From: an uncultured Nitrospirota bacterium
GTDB taxonomy: Bacteria > Nitrospirota > Nitrospiria > Nitrospirales > UBA8639
Direction: 5' to 3'
Assembly: GCA_937139405.1 (NCBI GenBank)
Contig: CAKZPV010000050.1
Coordinates: 1-64,000, forward strand
DNA length: 64,000 nt
In this document: positions 16,335-44,120 of the stretch, in pieces
Position numbering within the stretch: position 1 is the stretch's first letter
Layout of the letters: each line of letters begins with the position of its first letter
Notes under the pieces: generated by a model
What the model saw: only the letters and a program-made list of their open reading frames with translations
Databases searched by the model: none
What the model was told of the DNA's origin: nothing
Translations under genes and position numbers: made by a program

Positions 16335-16432
16335 TTCGGTTCCCCGATTTACGTGGTGAAACGCCTATTTTACGATTGATTTGAAAAAATACAGGTAATT
16401 CTCAGGTTATTTTTTTTTAAGGAGGCCGGTCC

Positions 16433-19400
16433 ATGTTTTACGTGAAAACTCGGAATGCCGTCACATCCCTTTCCCTCGGGTTATTCCTGGGAGGGATATC
16501 TCTGTTTTCGGCTGGGAATCTCTTAGCTGGAGAATCTCATGACACCATGATGCACAAGGCTGGAATGACGTCACAATCCCCTGGTTGGGCAGAAAAGTTG
16601 AAAGGCCAGACCATCGTGGAAGATGCCATGGAGGGTCGTGCCGAGCGGGCGGCGCTGGTTGAGCAACAACATGAGCGCATGATGCAGCAAATGCAACAAG
16701 ACATGGAACATAATGGCGAAAATACCGGTGCATTCAATGGGATGTCCATGATTCATCAATATGGCGGTGGACCTGCGAATGGCTTACTGGCCAGTAATAT
16801 GGGTGTGGAACCTGTCTCCATGAATGGGGGGCTCTGCCCAAAAACGGCAGCGGTACGGAACTATGATATTTCAGCCATTAATGTTGAAATTACCTTGAAT
16901 CAATGGTTGGATTACTATCCTGGCTATATGTATACCCTCACTGAAAATATTGAAAAAATTCGAGAAGAAGAAGCAAAAAATGCTGAGGCTCGCGAATCAG
17001 AGGGGCATCATGATCCGGGTGCCGTCACAAACGGAATTCAAGATCAATGGATTCAGCCCTTAGTCATTCGTGGAAATCAAGGGGATTGCGTGAAAATCAC
17101 GCTTCGAAACTCATTAGAATTTGGGGAAGAAGTTAGCCTGCACATTAATGGGTCGGATATGGTCATGAGTGAAACAGGCCATCCTGCTGCCACCACTAAT
17201 GGCGATTCAGTAGCGGAAGAAGGCCAAACGATTAATATGGAATGGTATATTCATCCCGATACCCAAGAAGGGGGTCGGCAATTTCATACTTACAGTAATG
17301 ACCGGGAATTGACCGTCATGGGTATGTTTGGAGTGTTTGTCGTGGAGCCTCGAGGGTCAAATTATTATGAACCCCTTGGAACGGGCCCAGCCACTGAAGC
17401 CACGAGCGGTTGGCAGGTCATGATTGATAATGGAGACGGGCCGGATTTCCGGGAATTTGTGCTCATCTATCATGAAGTGGGTGATGAAGCCTTTCGTCCG
17501 GTGAACAAGCATGGAGACTTTTTGCCTCAACGCGACCCTTTAACTGATACCTACCGTCCTGGGGCAAGGGCTATCAATTACCGGAGCGAACCGTTTGGCA
17601 TCAATAATATGCATGTGCAACATGAATACTTTGGGTTTGAAGATGAGTCGATGGGTTATAGCTCTTATACCTTTGGTGATGCAGCCCCCACGATTCCTCG
17701 TAGTTACTTGGGGGATCCGGCCAAATTTCGCCTCGTTCATGGCGGATCGGAAGTCTTCCATTCTCATCATCCTCATGGTGGGTCTATCCGATGGCAGCGT
17801 AGCCCACGGGCTACGCAAATGCCGGTGTGGAATATGGGGCAAAATGGTCCTGTGAAATATCCCGTGATCCGAACCAAGTCCGACCGGGTTGACGTAGAAG
17901 GTATTGGGCCTTCAGAAGCCTTAGATCTGGAAACGGAATGTGGATCGGGGTTGTGCCAATGGTTGGCGGGAGATTTTCTCTTCCATTGCCATGTAGCCCA
18001 TCATTATGTATCTGGGATGTGGGGTTACTGGCGTGTCTATAACACGATGCAAGTCCCTGGGGTGAAAAATGATGTGATGGCGCCATTGCGCGAATTGCCA
18101 GATCGTTTAGGGCGGATTCATAAGCCTGTATCTTCTGATCAATTGATTGGGAAAACCGTCAATTGGTTTGGAAAGAAGTTCAAGATTGTGGCCGAAGGTA
18201 AGAGCAATTGGAAGGCCGAGACTGCTGTTGTCAATATTAAAGATTGGGTGGAAATGCAGCTCTCGAACCAAGGTCAACCTGGGAATACTGCTGATGAAGA
18301 GGGGCAGCTGAAGGCGTATGATGCTAGTGTCATCGATTGGGTATGGCAGGGCAATAAAGCGATGAGTGAAAAAGAAGCCTCGATTGGAGAAAACCCCAAA
18401 TACAATCCAGAATGGCAAGGGTATAAGCCTGGTGAGCGCAGGCAGATATGGTTTGAGCCCACAACGGGGAAAGTGGCATGGCCATGGCTCACCCCACATT
18501 TTGGGAAACGGGTGCCATTCTCCAACGATCATAATCCTGCTCCATGGTTGGAAATGATTCGGTTGAACCCCGATGGGACACGGTCCGTTGAACCGGCGAA
18601 GCCTGGAGAAAACGGGCCTTGGAGTTTGTGCCCGGTTCGAGCAGGCTCTGAGAAGTACACAGTGCATTTCATTAAATTGCCGATTGAATTGTCGGCTGCT
18701 CAGGGTGATGAACCGCCGATTGTGGATCCACATGGGCTACTCTATGTCGTGCATGATGAAGAGGAAGAGGTTCGTGCGAATAATGACAAGAGGTTTCCTC
18801 TAGTAGTGAGAGCCAATGTCTATGATTGTGTTGACTGGACGTTGACGAGTGAATGGTTGGATGATGACGTGACCAATTTTCAATCATCCAAAATCAATAC
18901 TCATTTCCATTTTTTCCAGTTTGACAATCAAGCTTCAGATGGTGTGATTTCAGGATTTTCTTACGATCAATCAATGCGGCCCTTTACACAGTTTGAAAAG
19001 ACAACCAAAAAGGGCTTGCCGATTCCCATGAATGCGAAAGTGACGACGGCATCAAAAAAAGGCGATAGGACAATTCAGATAACGAATGCCAAACAATATC
19101 ATGTCGGCATTCCCATCCTTATTGGCGCTGATAACGTTGAAGGACAGGAGATTCGGAGAATTGTCGCCATTGGTGGAAGTGGTGGCTCCGCAGCTTCTGC
19201 AAACGGCGCTTCGGATTACACGGTGACCCCTGGTGATTCACTAGGAAAAATCGCCAGTTCCTTTGGTACCTCTGTCGGTACCTTACGTGACTTGAATGGG
19301 TTGGAAGATGCAAATGTGATCGTAGTTGGACAAAAGTTAAAAGTTCCTGGACTTGGAGCAAGTGATTCTGCCCCTGCGGCTTCAGGAGAAAATACTCTGA

Positions 19401-21529
19401 CATTTGATCAACCATTGAAGAATGATCACCCTGTTGGAGATATCTTGACGGTGGAATATGTCCGTCAACGGTTTTGGGTTGATGCAGACGTAGGCAGTGT
19501 GTTTTGGCATGATCATGCTTTTGGTGGAACCACTTGGCCTCATGGTGCGGTTGGGACTATCGTTGCTGAACCATTCAATTCAACCTGGCATGATCCAAAG
19601 ACTGGAGAGCCAATCCGTACCGGTCCTGTGGCCGACATTTATGCCACTGAACGGGTAGGGCATGACGTCGCAGGTAGTTTCCGAGAGCTCGTTGTTCATA
19701 TCATGGATACGGTCCCTCATACCGTCAATGTCGTCACGGCAGGAAATCCTCCAGGACAACCTATTGATGTCGCTTTGGAAGCAGGCCGGACCGTATCATT
19801 CATTATGCCGCCAAATGATAAGATTAAAATGACTCCCATGCCATTTTTGAACGGGGGAACACACACGACAGGTGGGGCGTTGAATTTCCGAGCGGAGCCT
19901 TTTGCTCAACGCTTGGTTAACAACCCTGAGCCGTCACAAATTTTCAGCAGTAAGGTGCATGGCGATCCGAGTACGGCTATGTTACGGGCCTATCTTGGTG
20001 ACGCCATTGTCTTTCGTTTAGTTGATGTGACGATGAATGAAAGTAATGTGTTCACGGTCTCAGGACATACCTTCTGGACGGAACGGTATGCGCAAGAAGC
20101 CAACCGAAAAAATTCCATTCATATTAGCATTGCGGAACGATATGATTTAGTCGTTCCGGAAGCAGGTGGTCCCAGGCATCAGCCTGGTGACTACATGTTC
20201 TTTAATGGACGGAGTTCGAAGTTTTCGGAAGGAGCTTGGGGGATCATTCGAGTGCTTGATAAGCCAACAGATGACCTTAAGGTTTTGCCCACCAAGGCTT
20301 ATGGTAAGCCAGGAATGCCGGAGAAGCTCCCGGTATGTCCAAGTGATGCACCAGTTAAAAGTTTCAATGTTGTGGCGATGGATCACCCTGGGATGAGCTT
20401 TAATTCTAATGCCGAAGAATCCATTGAAGTAGATTTCGAACGAACGATTGAGCTTCGGAATCCTGAAGCCAAAATTTATGTTTTGGAAGATGAAGTGCAG
20501 AAAGTGTCTGGAGATGTTCAGCCCATGCCGTTAACGCTTCGGGCCAATGTGGGTGATTGTCTCAAAATCAATCTAACGAATAAACTGAAAGAAGGCCGGG
20601 CTTCCTTTTCGGCCTTTAGTTTGGTGTTCGATCCCATGGATTCACAAGGGGTCAATCTAGGGAATAATCCAGGTGACCAAACGATAGCTCCCGGTGAATC
20701 GCGGACCTATACCTATTATGCTGACCCATTCAATGGGGAAACGCAGTCTTTGGTATGGGATTTTGGTAATGCCGCCATGAATCCTCGTAATGGGTTATTC
20801 GGGGGTGTCGTGATTGGACCAAGGGGGTCAACCTATCGTGATCCACAGACAGGTGAAGACATTTCCCTTAAAAATAGCTGGAAGGCAGACGTGATTATCG
20901 ATCGTTCGATTCAGGGGAATGAATTGCGTGCCAATTATCGTGATGTGGCCTTGTATTTCCAAGATGAGGACAACATCATTGGAACGAGCTTCATGCCCTA
21001 TGTACAAAATGTGGCTGGTTTGTTAGGTGTGAATTATCGCGCGGAGCCCTATTTGTACCGCGAAGAAGCAGGTTGCTCTTTAGGACGGATGTTCCAACCC
21101 TGTGAAGTGGATAATCCACAGGACCCAGTCACTCCAACGATTGAAGCCCATGCCGGTGACAAAGTTCGTATTCATGTCTTTGGTGCCAGCAGCGAGCAAA
21201 ATGGGATGTTCACGGTGGAAAAACATGAATGGCCCATCGAACCCTTCCTTCCTGGTGCGGATATGATTAGCACTGTGGAGTTTTCGGGTTCTGAAGGCTT
21301 AGATGTTTTTCTCCCATCTGCCGGTGGGACATGGGCATTGGCTGGAGACTATGTGTGGAGTAATGGCCGATTACCCTATTCCCAATCAGGGCAATGGGGT
21401 TTATTTCGAGTGTTGCCGAATACAGATCAACGGATTCTGCCGTTATCTGGTTCTGTTTCTTCAAACAAGCAAGCTGCCCTTGAGAATGAATTAGGTAAAG
21501 CTAGAATCATTCCAACTGTGGCGAAGTAA
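16433..21529 (+). CDS. giant secreted multicopper oxidase with LysM insert
   Basis: The 1698-residue precursor has a signal peptide (1-32), a Met/His/Gln-rich linker (about 33-110) and many cupredoxin-type domains. All four copper motifs are present but out of the usual order: H443xxH446xH448, then H518-C-H520-x3-H524-x4-M529, then H824xH826, then H1026xH1028. Together they can build one type-1 site and the trinuclear cluster. A LysM domain (about 928-973) sits between the last two motifs. The final 400 residues form further cupredoxin-like domains without obvious ligands. Size and layout recall the MnxG/MofA manganese oxidases more than laccases. AGGAGG precedes the ATG. It is transcribed alone, ended by the terminator at 21555, with copper-protein genes following. 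The substrate is unknown. Confidence 0.88.
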   Translation: MFYVKTRNAVTSLSLGLFLGGISLFSAGNLLAGESHDTMMHKAGMTSQSPGWAEKLKGQTIVEDAMEGRAERAALVEQQHERMMQQMQQDMEHNGENTGAFNGMSMIHQYGGGPANGLLASNMGVEPVSMNGGLCPKTAAVRNYDISAINVEITLNQWLDYYPGYMYTLTENIEKIREEEAKNAEARESEGHHDPGAVTNGIQDQWIQPLVIRGNQGDCVKITLRNSLEFGEEVSLHINGSDMVMSETGHPAATTNGDSVAEEGQTINMEWYIHPDTQEGGRQFHTYSNDRELTVMGMFGVFVVEPRGSNYYEPLGTGPATEATSGWQVMIDNGDGPDFREFVLIYHEVGDEAFRPVNKHGDFLPQRDPLTDTYRPGARAINYRSEPFGINNMHVQHEYFGFEDESMGYSSYTFGDAAPTIPRSYLGDPAKFRLVHGGSEVFHSHHPHGGSIRWQRSPRATQMPVWNMGQNGPVKYPVIRTKSDRVDVEGIGPSEALDLETECGSGLCQWLAGDFLFHCHVAHHYVSGMWGYWRVYNTMQVPGVKNDVMAPLRELPDRLGRIHKPVSSDQLIGKTVNWFGKKFKIVAEGKSNWKAETAVVNIKDWVEMQLSNQGQPGNTADEEGQLKAYDASVIDWVWQGNKAMSEKEASIGENPKYNPEWQGYKPGERRQIWFEPTTGKVAWPWLTPHFGKRVPFSNDHNPAPWLEMIRLNPDGTRSVEPAKPGENGPWSLCPVRAGSEKYTVHFIKLPIELSAAQGDEPPIVDPHGLLYVVHDEEEEVRANNDKRFPLVVRANVYDCVDWTLTSEWLDDDVTNFQSSKINTHFHFFQFDNQASDGVISGFSYDQSMRPFTQFEKTTKKGLPIPMNAKVTTASKKGDRTIQITNAKQYHVGIPILIGADNVEGQEIRRIVAIGGSGGSAASANGASDYTVTPGDSLGKIASSFGTSVGTLRDLNGLEDANVIVVGQKLKVPGLGASDSAPAASGENTLTFDQPLKNDHPVGDILTVEYVRQRFWVDADVGSVFWHDHAFGGTTWPHGAVGTIVAEPFNSTWHDPKTGEPIRTGPVADIYATERVGHDVAGSFRELVVHIMDTVPHTVNVVTAGNPPGQPIDVALEAGRTVSFIMPPNDKIKMTPMPFLNGGTHTTGGALNFRAEPFAQRLVNNPEPSQIFSSKVHGDPSTAMLRAYLGDAIVFRLVDVTMNESNVFTVSGHTFWTERYAQEANRKNSIHISIAERYDLVVPEAGGPRHQPGDYMFFNGRSSKFSEGAWGIIRVLDKPTDDLKVLPTKAYGKPGMPEKLPVCPSDAPVKSFNVVAMDHPGMSFNSNAEESIEVDFERTIELRNPEAKIYVLEDEVQKVSGDVQPMPLTLRANVGDCLKINLTNKLKEGRASFSAFSLVFDPMDSQGVNLGNNPGDQTIAPGESRTYTYYADPFNGETQSLVWDFGNAAMNPRNGLFGGVVIGPRGSTYRDPQTGEDISLKNSWKADVIIDRSIQGNELRANYRDVALYFQDEDNIIGTSFMPYVQNVAGLLGVNYRAEPYLYREEAGCSLGRMFQPCEVDNPQDPVTPTIEAHAGDKVRIHVFGASSEQNGMFTVEKHEWPIEPFLPGADMISTVEFSGSEGLDVFLPSAGGTWALAGDYVWSNGRLPYSQSGQWGLFRVLPNTDQRILPLSGSVSSNKQAALENELGKARIIPTVAK

Positions 21530-21554
21530 GTTTTTAGAATTAAGAGAAAGAACG

Positions 21555-21590
21555 AAGCGGGGGAGTCGAAAGGCTTCCCCGCTTTTTTTT
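21555..21590 (+). terminator. intrinsic terminator after the multicopper oxidase gene
   Basis: A GC-rich stem, AAGCGGGG/CCCCGCTT with a one-base bulge and a short loop, followed by an uninterrupted run of T. Confidence 0.85.
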
Positions 21591-21678: not shown

Positions 21679-22614
21679 TTGAAGGAGGGTAGGAACATGT
21701 TTGCTTGGGTTTTGTTTGTGGTGTCTTGGGGAATGCTCACTATCACGCCCGCCTGGTCGTACACCGAAATTTCAGTGGTTGAAGGAGGAACATTAAAAGG
21801 GACAGTAACTCTGGTAGGGGAAAAGCCTCGACCCATGGCCATGAACTTGGTCACGATTCCTGATGCTGTCTATTGTGGGAGAATTTCTACTGGCACGGGT
21901 TGGCGAATTGTTGAAGATTTCCTCATTGGGTCCGGTGGGACCTTAAAAGATGCTGTTGTCATGTTGAAGAATGTGGAAAAAGGCAAGGCATTTGATATTC
22001 CCAAAGTTGAGGTCGAAGCTATTGACTGCGACTTTTCACCTTTTGTAAATGTTATTAAAGATCGTGAAGAGCTTACGGTTATTAATATGGATCCGATCGA
22101 ACATGATATTCAAGGGTATGAAACCGCTAGGGAACGAGGAGCGAGAATCTTATTCAACCGCCCTTTGCCAATGAACCCGTTCCATAAGGTTGTTCAGATG
22201 TTCGGAGAAAACTCTCATACGCATATGCCTGGCAAGCCAATGGTAGAAGAAATTCACCTTCGAAAAAACCGAAATATTTTCGTGATGCAATGTGGCTTTC
22301 ATCCGTATATGTTTTCATGGGGGGTCGTTTTGGATAATCCGTACTATTTCATTACGAAAGAAGATGGAGCCTTTCAAATATCGGATATTCCACAGGGAAA
22401 ATATGAAGTCGTTGCCTGGCATCCTGGTATGAAGGCGTATTTAAAGCAAACGATTCAGATTGAACCAGGCAAAATTTCCAATGTGAACTTCCAATACGAA
22501 TCGCCAAAGGGGCGGCGTAGTGCCCATGAAATGCACGATAACCCACGATTTGGTGAAGAATTACTCGATGAGGGTGAGAAAATCGTTCCATCGCTTCGTC
22601 AACAAATTCCGTAA
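21679..22614 (+). CDS. secreted type-1 copper protein with beta-sandwich domain (paralog 1)
   Basis: A 311-residue protein with a signal peptide (1-21). The N-terminal block GGTLKGTVTLVGEKPRP is of the carboxypeptidase-regulatory (CnaB-like) type. A cupredoxin-like core follows with His136 (EHDIQ) and the loop Cys199-x2-His202-x2-Met205, the exact type-1 copper pattern. A C-terminal Gly/Val-rich strand domain (GAFQISDIPQGKYEVVAWHPG) closes it. Extra cysteines (60, 111) may form a disulfide. AAGGAGGG precedes the ATG. It lies five bases before its paralog and right after the giant oxidase, so it may be that enzyme's electron acceptor. It is best described as a new cupredoxin-fusion family. Confidence 0.75.
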   Translation: MKEGRNMFAWVLFVVSWGMLTITPAWSYTEISVVEGGTLKGTVTLVGEKPRPMAMNLVTIPDAVYCGRISTGTGWRIVEDFLIGSGGTLKDAVVMLKNVEKGKAFDIPKVEVEAIDCDFSPFVNVIKDREELTVINMDPIEHDIQGYETARERGARILFNRPLPMNPFHKVVQMFGENSHTHMPGKPMVEEIHLRKNRNIFVMQCGFHPYMFSWGVVLDNPYYFITKEDGAFQISDIPQGKYEVVAWHPGMKAYLKQTIQIEPGKISNVNFQYESPKGRRSAHEMHDNPRFGEELLDEGEKIVPSLRQQIP

Positions 22615-22619
22615 TTGTT

Positions 22620-23537
22620 ATGAACCTGCTATTTCTCACTGTTCTTGTTCAGGTGCTTTTGATGAATGACCCGGCTTCAGGTTTAGCCTATGAGGTGCGG
22701 AATGTGGAAGCGGGAGGGACAATCAAGGGAACCGTGACTCTGAAGGGGGATGCTCCTTCACCAAAAGCCTATAACCTCATTACTTTTCCTGATCCTGAAT
22801 ATTGTGGTCGTATTTCTGATGGAAATGGGTGGCGATTATTGAAAGATTTTGTGGTGAATAATCGTAATGAAATGCAAGGTGTGGTGGTTGTGGTTGAAGG
22901 AGTGGCTGCTGGAAAACCCTTTACGATTTCTATTCCAAAGGTTGAAGCAAGGGATTGCCAATTTCTCCCATTTACCACAGTCGTTCGCAGCGACCACGGT
23001 ATCGAAGTCGTTAATATGGATCCCGTTATGCACGATATTCAGGCCTATGAAACTTCAGTGGCCCATGGAACGCGTGTATTGTTTAATTCCCCGCTTCCCT
23101 TTAATCAGAAACATCATCGGGAGAACATTCATGCTATGCATGACCATGTTCCGGGTAAATCCATGGTACATCAGTTTCAACTCAGCAAAGGCAGAAAAAC
23201 TTTTGTGATGCAATGTGGATTTCATGCTTATATGGAAAGTTGGGCCATTGCCGTTGATAATCCCTATTTTATGTTCACAAGTGAAACAGGGAGTTATGAA
23301 ATTTCTGGTATTCCTCAAGGAACCTATCGTTTGCGAGCCTGGCATCCCAGCGTGAAACGTGAAGAAACGCAAATGGTGACTGTTGAGTCATCACAAGCGA
23401 CTCATGTCGATTTTTCCTTGAATTCTCCAGTCAGGCGATGGACTGCGCATACCCGTCAAACGCCACCACGGTTCACACCAGCAGCATTGGGACGCCCGAT
23501 CAATATTGAGCCTCTTGTTGAACTTCAAAGGCCATGA
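22620..23537 (+). CDS. secreted type-1 copper protein with beta-sandwich domain (paralog 2)
   Basis: 305 residues, collinear with its upstream neighbour: signal peptide, GGTIKGTVTLKGDAPSP, PEYCGRISDGNGWR, then His138 (MHDIQ) and Cys199-x2-His202-x2-Met205, then GSYEISGIPQGTYRLRAWHP. Ligand spacing is identical in both, so this is a tandem duplication that kept the copper site. It has an additional histidine-rich stretch (KHHRENIHAMHDH, about 164-176). Its end overlaps the next ATG by four bases, and the whole set is probably one operon from 21679. Confidence 0.75.
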   Translation: MNLLFLTVLVQVLLMNDPASGLAYEVRNVEAGGTIKGTVTLKGDAPSPKAYNLITFPDPEYCGRISDGNGWRLLKDFVVNNRNEMQGVVVVVEGVAAGKPFTISIPKVEARDCQFLPFTTVVRSDHGIEVVNMDPVMHDIQAYETSVAHGTRVLFNSPLPFNQKHHRENIHAMHDHVPGKSMVHQFQLSKGRKTFVMQCGFHAYMESWAIAVDNPYFMFTSETGSYEISGIPQGTYRLRAWHPSVKREETQMVTVESSQATHVDFSLNSPVRRWTAHTRQTPPRFTPAALGRPINIEPLVELQRP

Positions 23538-27888: not shown

Positions 27889-28704
27889 ATGAGAAAACGT
27901 CAGTCCCTAACTCTGTCTTTATTGATGGGTGGTCTGCTCATTGCCGCCCCTCTCGTCGCCCAAGCGGGTGGAACCATTAAAGGAAAAGTCACGTTTGCGG
28001 GGAAAGTGCCTCCCCCGAAAGAATTTGCATTTTCCAAATTTCCCAACGTCGACTTCTGTAAAAAGAATGAAAGTAAAAGTGCTGATGGTGAAACGCGCCT
28101 ATTAAAAGAAGTTCAAGTTGATGGTGGAGGTGGATTAAAGGATGCGGTTGTTGCGATCACTAGCATTACCGATAAAGATTGGATGAAAGGTTTTGCCAAA
28201 GAACCAGCACAAAAAGTGATGGCAGATCTTTGTGAATTCTCACCGTTTACTGGTGTGGCTGTGAGCAAAGGCACTTTTTACGTAGAAAATAATGATGCCG
28301 ATCCAGATGATCCCAAGTCTGCCGAAGGTGTGTTGCACAATCCACATAGTTTTGATCAATTAGGCGCCAAATCCAGCACGGAATTCAATATTGGGTTGGC
28401 CAAAAAAGGTTCGTCGTTGCAAAAGAAGGTCAAATTAAAAATGGCCAAAAAGGGTTCTGTTCTTCGGTTGCAATGTGACCAACATGAATTCATGCAAGGC
28501 TGGTATATGCCTGTGACGAATCCACATTATGGGACATCAGGTGCTGATGGGACATTTGAAATTAAAGATGTGCCAGCTGGAAAACATACCCTTGCCGTAT
28601 TCCATCCTTCGGTGGCCAAATTTGCGCGTGGGAAAAAGGCCATGACCGTGGAAGTTGAAGTGGCCGACGGTGGGACAGCCGAAGCCAATTTCGACATTAA
28701 ATAA
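27889..28704 (+). CDS. secreted type-1 copper protein with beta-sandwich domain (paralog 3)
   Basis: 271 residues with a signal peptide (1-26, AQA). It has the same architecture as the pair at 21679-23537: GGTIKGKVTFAGKVPPP, a cupredoxin core with a candidate His150 or His153, and the loop Cys196-x2-His199-x2-Met202 (LQCDQHEFMQGW). A C-terminal GTFEIKDVPAGKHTLAVFHPS domain follows. It is more lysine-rich and basic than the other two. AGGAGG precedes the ATG. It has its own promoter and terminator, so expression is independent and probably high. It is a candidate soluble electron carrier. Confidence 0.78.
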   Translation: MRKRQSLTLSLLMGGLLIAAPLVAQAGGTIKGKVTFAGKVPPPKEFAFSKFPNVDFCKKNESKSADGETRLLKEVQVDGGGGLKDAVVAITSITDKDWMKGFAKEPAQKVMADLCEFSPFTGVAVSKGTFYVENNDADPDDPKSAEGVLHNPHSFDQLGAKSSTEFNIGLAKKGSSLQKKVKLKMAKKGSVLRLQCDQHEFMQGWYMPVTNPHYGTSGADGTFEIKDVPAGKHTLAVFHPSVAKFARGKKAMTVEVEVADGGTAEANFDIK

Positions 28705-42215: not shown

Positions 42216-44120
42216 ATGAACAAGATGCAACCAACTAATACTGAGTATTTAGGAACAACGAGGGAACTCATGAACAGACAGCAACTGACTCATCAACGGC
42301 GTCCAGGCATGACCGCGAGCCTGCTGGCCGTCGGGGTCCTCCTGGTCGGGTTGGGCGTCAGTAGCCCGGCCTTGGCACAAGAGGCCGAAGGCTTTGTCAC
42401 GGGCACATTGCCCGCCCCCGCTCCCGCCGAACAAGTGGAAGCCGGCAAACGAGTGTATTTCACCAAATGTGTGTGGTGCCATGGTGTCAACGGTTCTGGT
42501 GATGGCCCTGGGGCGGACCGCCTTTGGCCGCGCCCTCGTAATTTTAACGCTGGGACCTTTAAGATTCGCCATACCGCCAGTGGTGAACTCCCCCTCATTG
42601 ATGTCGACCTGCTGCAAACGGTGACGCACGGCCTCCCGGGCTCGGCCATGCCCTCGTGGGAAGGTATCCTCAATGAACAACAACGCAAAGATGTCTTAGC
42701 CTTTGTCACCACGGAACTGGTGCAAGATCGCTCCTGGCAGGATGAAGAGTTTGAAGAATTGCATATCTTAGAGCTTGAGAAGTTATCGGGAGCCGCCGTG
42801 CCCCCCTCCGCCGAGTCCATCAAGCGTGGCTCGGAATTGGTCGTCGAGAATAAATGTATTGAATGCCATGGCCTCGAAGGTCGCGGCGATGGGAACGCCT
42901 TCAATTTGAAAGATGACTGGGGCTTCTCCATTCAACCAGCAGACTGGCACAAATGCTGGAACTTCCGGGGCAGCCGTCAAGATGCTTACAACGTCAAGAA
43001 CATCTTTCGGACGTTTTCCACCGGCATCAATGGCACGCCGATGCCGTCTTTTGCGGATAACACCAGCATTGAAGATCGGTGGCATATTGCCAACTATGTC
43101 CAGTCCCTTTGTGAACGGGATAAAGACGTGGACATTGCCGGAGGCCAAGTCACCGATGAAATTGCCGCTGAACTGTTGGCAGCGAAACCTCGTGGGATTG
43201 ATCCTTTGACGGACAAACCCAAAGTGAACTTTGTGATCCCCTCTAAGTTCGCCGAAGGGGAGCTCCCCAAAGATGAACATGACCCCCGCTGGTATGATGA
43301 GCGGTGGGAAAAAGAAGGCCGGCGTATTGTGGCCATCGGTGGGCAGATCACCCATAAACCCCGCAACTTCGTCAACCGTATTGATGATATCTGGGTGCAA
43401 TCGATGTATAACGAGACTCATGTCACCATGATGTTCCGTTGGGATGATCGGACTAAGAGCATCCAAGAAGATGAGGTGGATTGGGATCCATACGAAGTGA
43501 ATCTGGCCGATTACGGTATTGTCGAACAAGAACCCGGTGGCAGTCAGTTTGATGATGATACAACCCATCCAGACTCCATTGCCGCGAAACAAACCAGCTA
43601 TCAAGTATTCAACGATGGGCTGGCCTTTCAAATGCCTATTAAGTTTCAAGAGTTACCCGCCCCCAGGAAACCCCGATACTTCTGGGGTGATGAGGGTTTC
43701 CCGGTGGATATTGCCAAATGGACGGCCGATGGAAATTTGATGGCCTATGAAGGCACCGGTTGGGATCAAGACCTCGAAGACCGGGATGACTTCACCGAGC
43801 AACTCACGCTGGATAAAGCGGAATGGAAAGATGGCCGATGGACGGTTATTATTTCACGCCCGCTCAAAGCAGACTATGAAGCCGATACTTATATTGAGCT
43901 CGGCAAATATATACCCATTAACTTCTTTGTGTGGGATGGCCATAACGGCGACGTTGGTAGGAAGATGGGTGTGTCGGCCTTCTACTATCTCGTCTTAGAG
44001 CCCCCGATTCCATCGGAAGCCAAATGGTATGCGGGCTTGGCCGCGGTGGGGTTGGTGATCGTTGAAGGGTGGATTTTGACTCGGCGTTCGAACCGACGCA
44101 AAGAGCAGGGAGCCAGCTAA
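42216..44120 (+). CDS. diheme NxrC-like protein (cytochrome c plus ethylbenzene-dehydrogenase-type heme b domain)
   Basis: 634 residues with a signal peptide ending ALA-QE (about 54). Two cytochrome-c domains come first: Cys85/Cys88/His89 (CVWCHG, Met145) and Cys214/Cys217/His218 (CIECHG, Met276). A C-terminal domain of the DMSO-reductase-family gamma-subunit type (PF09459-like, about 330-600) follows, which binds a b heme with Met/Lys axial ligands. A final membrane helix (about 602-620) closes it. NxrC candidates in Nitrospira have this gamma fold. An ATG at 42270 with GAGGGA upstream gives a more standard signal peptide and may be the true start. The same high G+C as the preceding gene; a terminator follows. 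Confidence 0.83.
   Translation: MNKMQPTNTEYLGTTRELMNRQQLTHQRRPGMTASLLAVGVLLVGLGVSSPALAQEAEGFVTGTLPAPAPAEQVEAGKRVYFTKCVWCHGVNGSGDGPGADRLWPRPRNFNAGTFKIRHTASGELPLIDVDLLQTVTHGLPGSAMPSWEGILNEQQRKDVLAFVTTELVQDRSWQDEEFEELHILELEKLSGAAVPPSAESIKRGSELVVENKCIECHGLEGRGDGNAFNLKDDWGFSIQPADWHKCWNFRGSRQDAYNVKNIFRTFSTGINGTPMPSFADNTSIEDRWHIANYVQSLCERDKDVDIAGGQVTDEIAAELLAAKPRGIDPLTDKPKVNFVIPSKFAEGELPKDEHDPRWYDERWEKEGRRIVAIGGQITHKPRNFVNRIDDIWVQSMYNETHVTMMFRWDDRTKSIQEDEVDWDPYEVNLADYGIVEQEPGGSQFDDDTTHPDSIAAKQTSYQVFNDGLAFQMPIKFQELPAPRKPRYFWGDEGFPVDIAKWTADGNLMAYEGTGWDQDLEDRDDFTEQLTLDKAEWKDGRWTVIISRPLKADYEADTYIELGKYIPINFFVWDGHNGDVGRKMGVSAFYYLVLEPPIPSEAKWYAGLAAVGLVIVEGWILTRRSNRRKEQGAS

Follow-up and report, generated by a model that had tools for sequence, protein, structure and literature searches.

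An MnxG-type multicopper oxidase of Nitrospiria with a LysM domain between its type 3 copper motifs

The window, i.e., the whole stretch of 64,000 nucleotides analyzed here, encodes a multicopper oxidase of 1,698 residues (16433 to 21529, + strand) that is a variant of the MnxG type, ordinary in its family and in the order of its copper motifs. What makes it unusual is a LysM domain predicted to be nested within another insertion, the near-universal conservation of the enzyme in its class, and a history that probably included gene conversion. New here are the predicted insertion of a LysM domain and its host beta domain between the type 3 copper motifs, the confinement of the LysM form to one family, the presence of cupredoxin-like partner genes beside the oxidase across the class, and the likely origin of the gene as a gene-conversion mosaic with the LysM-less paralog of the same genome. 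We favor, with a probability of about 0.55, a Sec-exported periplasmic enzyme of six cupredoxin domains, tethered by LysM, that acts on a metal substrate (Mn(II) being the first candidate) with the neighboring CupA and CupB proteins as partners. Members of Nitrospira are suspected of Mn oxidation in drinking-water filters, for which the oxidase is a concrete candidate gene. The order sister to that of Nitrospira contains known Mn chemolithoautotrophs.

The oxidase gene and its copper ligands

The reading frame is open throughout. A Shine-Dalgarno sequence (AAGGAGG, 16419 to 16425) lies 7 nucleotides ahead of the ATG, and an intrinsic-terminator-like hairpin of 14 pairs with a T run (21554 to 21585) follows the gene on the same strand. 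The protein starts with a Sec-type signal peptide (residues ~1 to 33; 16433 to 16531) whose sequence is that of the LysM-bearing lineage. Cupredoxin domain 1 (residues ~138 to 310; 16844 to 17362), recognized by a Pfam Cu-oxidase_3 match at residues 201 to 307 and by alignment to the MnxG structure 9bxa, is devoid of copper ligands. Domain 2 carries motif C, HSHHPH (residues 443 to 448; 17759 to 17776), and motif D, HCHVAHHYVSGM (residues 518 to 529; 17984 to 18019), the latter with the type 1 Cys, His, and Met and a type 3 His. Domain 3 carries motif A, HFH (residues 824 to 826; 18902 to 18910), and motif B, HDH (residues 1026 to 1028; 19508 to 19516), which align with HIH and HDH of MnxG. 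No copper ligands were seen in domain 4 (residues ~1080 to 1285; 19670 to 20287), identified by its sequence match to 9bxa, or in domains 5 and 6 (residues ~1325 to 1665; 20405 to 21427), identified by phmmer stretches to the same structure and with approximate boundaries. All 12 copper ligands were invariant in the alignment of 61 full-length homologs (61/61), and the motifs are therefore not a product of chance. The frame and the intact ligands had been reported in a preliminary description made from the sequence alone, and they stand.

Family placement and motif order

The closest relative in the PDB by sequence was MnxG of Bacillus sp. PL-12/SG-1 (9bxa, the Mnx complex with the H340A mutation of the type 1 His), both in a search with the single sequence (E = 2.9e−79) and with a 30-sequence profile (E = 1.9e−185), at an identity of about 25%. 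The runner-up families in the profile search were two-domain laccases, with E values of only about 1e−8 (622 bits for MnxG versus 36 for the best laccase). By these search scores, on which the placement relative to oxidases of the CotA and MofA kind rests, the protein does not group with laccases, a grouping that the preliminary description had named as contrary to its view. The NCBIfam model of MnxG (NF041487; 1,894 positions) produced five partial matches (E = 3.1e−37; 127.2 bits), and the equivalog cutoff of 3,100 bits is not reached by the oxidase.

The motifs follow one another along the chain in the order C-D-A-B, and MnxG shares this order together with the type 1 and trinuclear ligand set: in the alignment to 9bxa, HxxHxH falls at about position 283 of MnxG, HCH at about 336, HIH at about 530, and HDH at about 580. 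The order had been correctly read earlier as HxxHxH, HCHxxxHxxxxM, HxH, HxH and called permuted. This is true with respect to laccases but not as a peculiarity of this protein, since MnxG has the same reversed order, while MofA has the ordinary order of laccases (PMC3618234). We thus rejected a novel permutation: the arrangement is the hallmark of a known type. Of the MnxG and MofA metal oxidases, whose scale had earlier been ascribed to the protein, MnxG has this order as well, but MofA does not. The latter, from Leptothrix discophora, is likewise a large putative Mn oxidase, but it has motifs A and B at its N terminus (PMC3618234), and its A-B-C-D order is absent from the oxidase.

Several features set the Nitrospiria proteins apart from MnxG. 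A beta domain is added between their motifs A and B, and their linker from domain 2 to domain 3 is longer; the oxidase of the window additionally has the LysM domain and is adjoined by the CupA/B cupredoxin-like genes. The Bacillus enzyme works as the MnxEFG complex, with the small genes mnxE and mnxF in tandem upstream, and an MnxG-like plasmid locus of Priestia also has two small genes directly upstream. Directly upstream of the window oxidase are genes for an aminotransferase, an I42 inhibitor, and a Rieske protein; reading the neighboring genes in passing brought no small gene resembling mnxE or mnxF to notice.

Predicted fold

Residues 138 to 1298 were folded with a 30-row alignment, which gave a model of moderate quality (pLDDT, 68.8; pTM, 0.71). 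Its top Foldseek match was again 9bxa (E = 6.5e−54), and VIA-align superposed the two over 734 residues (Z = 35.5; 2.9 Å), with residues 3 to 1152 of the model colinear with residues 1 to 798 of MnxG. The cupredoxin folds are thus colinear over domains 1 to 4, and domains 5 and 6 correspond by sequence only. In the model, the motif-bearing domains 2 and 3 stand as they do in MnxG, and the four motifs are therefore expected to meet at a single trinuclear site. The earlier concern that the motifs might lie in separate domains unable to form such a cluster is answered, as far as the prediction goes, by the superposition on MnxG over precisely these domains. The second fold match was ceruloplasmin (2j5w/1kcw; VIA Z = 23.1), which has the six-cupredoxin fold in common with the oxidase but differs by a circularly shifted order and by three domains of type 1 instead of one. 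The trinuclear site of ceruloplasmin lies between its domains 1 and 6; that of the oxidase would lie between domains 2 and 3.

The LysM domain and its host

The LysM domain (residues 929 to 972; 19217 to 19348; Pfam PF01476, E = 4.4e−15) is located between the type 3 motifs A and B, which makes more precise the position between motifs given in the preliminary description. The model gives it a beta-alpha-alpha-beta fold, which matches the LysM of Thermus thermophilus (4uz2; Z = 8.8; 0.9 Å; 49% identity), and flanks it with low-confidence linkers, probably flexible. It appears to interrupt a small beta domain at one of its hairpins. The first half of this domain (residues ~867 to 914; 19031 to 19174) was delimited by the model and a fold search and the second half (residues ~987 to 1008; 19391 to 19456) by the alignment and the model. 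This beta domain is without counterpart in MnxG: profile positions 713 to 798, in the interval between motifs A and B, correspond to a gap at a single residue of 9bxa. Since the LysM occupies a hairpin of the beta domain and the beta domain occupies the gap of MnxG, the model describes a nested insertion, with LysM in the beta domain and the latter in cupredoxin domain 3.

The small beta domain is present in homologs across the class Nitrospiria, and the most distant members of the phylum differ in the alignment. No Pfam family scored above its cutoff for this LysM-hosting domain (window positions 18956 to 19474; residues 842 to 1014). Modeled alone, it is similar in fold to beta domains from phage tail and tailspike proteins, with Z values of 8 to 10 and a maximum of 9.9 (9n71; 78 residues; 2.7 Å), a likeness that is suggestive only. 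A phage origin was considered and set aside; it had a single weak match, over residues 875 to 988, i.e., LysM plus part of its host domain.

The preliminary description had placed the enzyme outside the cell. The sequence has only a Sec signal and the cell is Gram negative, because of which we read the tether as periplasmic: LysM would hold the oxidase on the peptidoglycan of the periplasm, and the extracellular location is not retained.

Distribution in Nitrospiria

The oxidase was found in 96 of the 98 nearest genomes. In a sample of 296 genomes of the phylum, 126 had a match, all but three of them inside the class Nitrospiria, and a match was obtained for each class member listed from outside the order. 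Nitrite oxidoreductase (NXR) was undetected in 13 of these class members outside the order that carry the oxidase, using a TIGR03479-type match at E = 1e−30, a test that was positive in G000, G066, and G049, three genomes of the order that have NXR. Because of these 13 genomes, we rejected a gene specific to nitrite oxidizers and conclude that the oxidase belongs to the core genes of the class, as an MnxG-type enzyme present in nearly every genome with or without NXR. The LysM form is far more restricted. Unsplit matches over the LysM region occurred in the window's own family only, and this region measures about 35 residues or fewer, instead of 83 to 99, in all rows of the alignment from outside that family.

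Oxidases of this kind have been met before. Those of Nitrospira (“Candidatus Nitrospira defluvii”) and Nitrospina (N. gracilis) were called MnxG-like and similar to the SG-1 enzyme, and a defense against reactive oxygen species based on Mn(III) was proposed (Luecker 2013, PMC3578206). The oxidase of “Ca. Nitrospira defluvii” is 66% identical to ours and has the same gene order but lacks LysM. A 2025 proposal drawn from filter MAGs has Nitrospira oxidizing Mn by means of MnxG (PMC12070406), and the core genes of Manganitrophaceae include two unspecified “novel MCOs” (PMC9040806). Four Nitrospiria oxidases (L117, L146, L166, and L181) were on contigs labeled Opitutales, Nitrosospira, and Nitrosomonas, probably mis-binned MAG contigs. 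One of them, L166, labeled uncultured Nitrosospira, was the only one among the homologs seen with a changed ligand column, where the first His of motif C aligns with Pro.

Gene neighborhood

Three paralogous cupredoxin-like genes lie downstream on the same strand: cupA (21697 to 22614), with the motif CGFHPYM and a CarboxypepD_reg domain, cupB (22620 to 23537; CGFHAYM), and cupC (27889 to 28704; CDQHEFM), all recognized by Pfam and by their motifs. The start of cupA was listed as a TTG at 21679; the likely start is the ATG at 21697, preceded by GAAGGAGGG. The C-x2-H-x2-M motif common to the three proteins is typical of blue-copper sites and suggests that they bind copper. The gene order is oxidase, CupA, CupB, a 223-residue protein, a HEAT protein, (Trx), CupC, a methyltransferase, DUF420, a 353-residue protein, and a bd-like oxidase, with cytochromes further on. 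It is colinear with that of “Ca. Nitrospira defluvii” (FP929003) and, as far as it was read, of Nitrospira moscoviensis, and the cluster appears to be the one drawn by Luecker 2013 (PMC3578206). CupA/B-like genes adjoin the oxidase in both species, as well as in 11 of the 13 whole loci that come from the class but not from the order (L201 to L212 and L217). Given the strong terminator-like hairpin between the oxidase and cupA, cotranscription of these genes is not required. We did not find nxrA in the window; the single nxrA-like match of the genome is on contig C43. At 42216 to 44120, the window encodes cytochrome c domains and a heme domain of the ethylbenzene dehydrogenase type, resembling putative NXR gamma subunits.

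Proposed function

In multicopper oxidases, the type 1 site takes up single electrons, a His-Cys-His bridge relays them, and four electrons reduce O2. In the mechanism that we propose, motifs C and D of domain 2 would provide the type 1 ligands together with one half of the trinuclear cluster, whose other half would come from motifs A and B of domain 3. As these domains are adjacent in the chain, their interface would hold one type 1 site and one trinuclear site, the arrangement of MnxG. Electrons would enter singly at the type 1 site and travel over the bridge; at the trinuclear cluster, they would reduce O2 to water. The enzyme would reside in the periplasm, held on the peptidoglycan by the LysM of the A-B insert, its substrate would most likely be a metal ion, and the neighboring CxxHxxM proteins CupA and CupB may serve as copper or electron partners. 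The architecture, the ligands, the motif order, the LysM domain, and the conservation across the class form the basis of this explanation. Mn(II) is the leading candidate substrate in our analysis, in agreement with Mn-linked observations on Nitrospira (PMC12070406). Against the explanation as a whole stand the low identity to MnxG, the score far under its equivalog cutoff, the moderate quality of the model, the failure to notice mnxE/mnxF-like neighbors, and the fact that almost the whole class has the oxidase, although most of its members are not known to oxidize Mn.

Among the alternatives, the one that fares best, while still unlikely, is a role as electron sink, in which the oxidase would consume O2 with electrons from CupA, CupB, and CupC instead of from free metal, within a periplasmic electron-transfer system that includes the downstream bd-like oxidases and c-type cytochromes. 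It would fit with the Cup genes being the most conserved neighbors, even in class members devoid of NXR, and with the colinearity of the whole series from the oxidase to the cytochromes in “Ca. N. defluvii.” Nevertheless, no energy would be conserved by such an oxidation, the CarboxypepD_reg domains of the Cup proteins are unlike known small electron carriers, and the hairpin separates the oxidase from cupA. A somewhat less probable reading is that of a cuprous or ferrous oxidase for periplasmic metal detoxification, in the manner of CueO or ceruloplasmin. The six-domain ceruloplasmin-like fold, the axial Met at the type 1 site, the neighbors resembling copper proteins, and a conservation independent of nitrite oxidation would agree with it, but the nearest relative is an Mn oxidase rather than CueO, no counterpart of the Met-rich CueO insert was seen in the oxidase, and nitrifiers are reported to have separate copies of CueO/PcoA (PMC13374858). 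That the protein is a laccase oxidizing phenols or other organic compounds is very improbable: it shares the chemistry of the three copper types and has weak profile matches to two-domain laccases, but the MnxG score in that search exceeds theirs by over 580 bits, and the motif order and size are unlike those of laccases.

Extending the preferred reading of a tethered metal oxidase, we tentatively speculate that MnxG and CupA/B might form a periplasmic metal-oxidation system common to all Nitrospiria, one that would be older than nitrite oxidation in this group and that the Mn-oxidizing Manganitrophaceae may use, and that in one family the enzyme might be anchored to the wall by a LysM domain kept or erased through gene conversion between paralogs. 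This remains a doubtful proposal.

The LysM-less paralog and the mosaic history of the gene

The genome of the window (G000) also encodes a LysM-less paralog (contig C4, 122512 to 127359; locus L044, 8513 to 13390, − strand), 87 to 88% identical to the window oxidase outside residues 915 to 987 and followed downstream by one CupA/B-like gene. The LysM insert is therefore a natural tether variant for which the same genome provides an untethered control. In trees built without the LysM columns, the window protein clusters with LysM-less paralogs, away from those proteins of its own genus that bear LysM and occupy the same gene neighborhood. An AU test run on the columns outside LysM rejected a single clade of LysM-bearing proteins (P = 1.8e−10 without the window row; P = 8e−49 with it). 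This scatter is explained by loss of LysM in the paralog clade together with gene conversion.

The sites separating the two types differ along the protein. Ten of the first twelve (residues 7 to 43) are of the LysM-bearing type and none of the LysM-less type; those at residues 51 to 875 are mostly LysM-less, those at residues 876 to 1003 lean to LysM-bearing, and those from residue 1009 to the end are again mostly LysM-less. The window gene is thus a mosaic in which the signal peptide (residues 1 to 45) and the LysM region (residues ~876 to 1003) come from the LysM-bearing type and the remainder is paralog-like. The pattern of sites is best explained by gene conversion from the paralog, which would have left both of these regions untouched.

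L161, from another MAG, shares the signal peptide but is without LysM. L050 (G010:C1:2632000-2650000) belongs to the genus of the window gene and occupies the same slot, but it is LysM-less, 72 to 74% identical, and outside the LysM clade, which we interpret as gene replacement or transfer. Genome G010 has at least four copies of the oxidase, and its locus L049 (G010:C1:406000-425000) contains two full oxidase genes close together and in the same direction. Finally, contig C31 of G000 (L045, 5304 to 5954, + strand) has a short open reading frame of 216 residues that covers the motif A part of the oxidase only, with 59% identity; a CupA-like gene at 70% comes next. The frame is probably a gene remnant.
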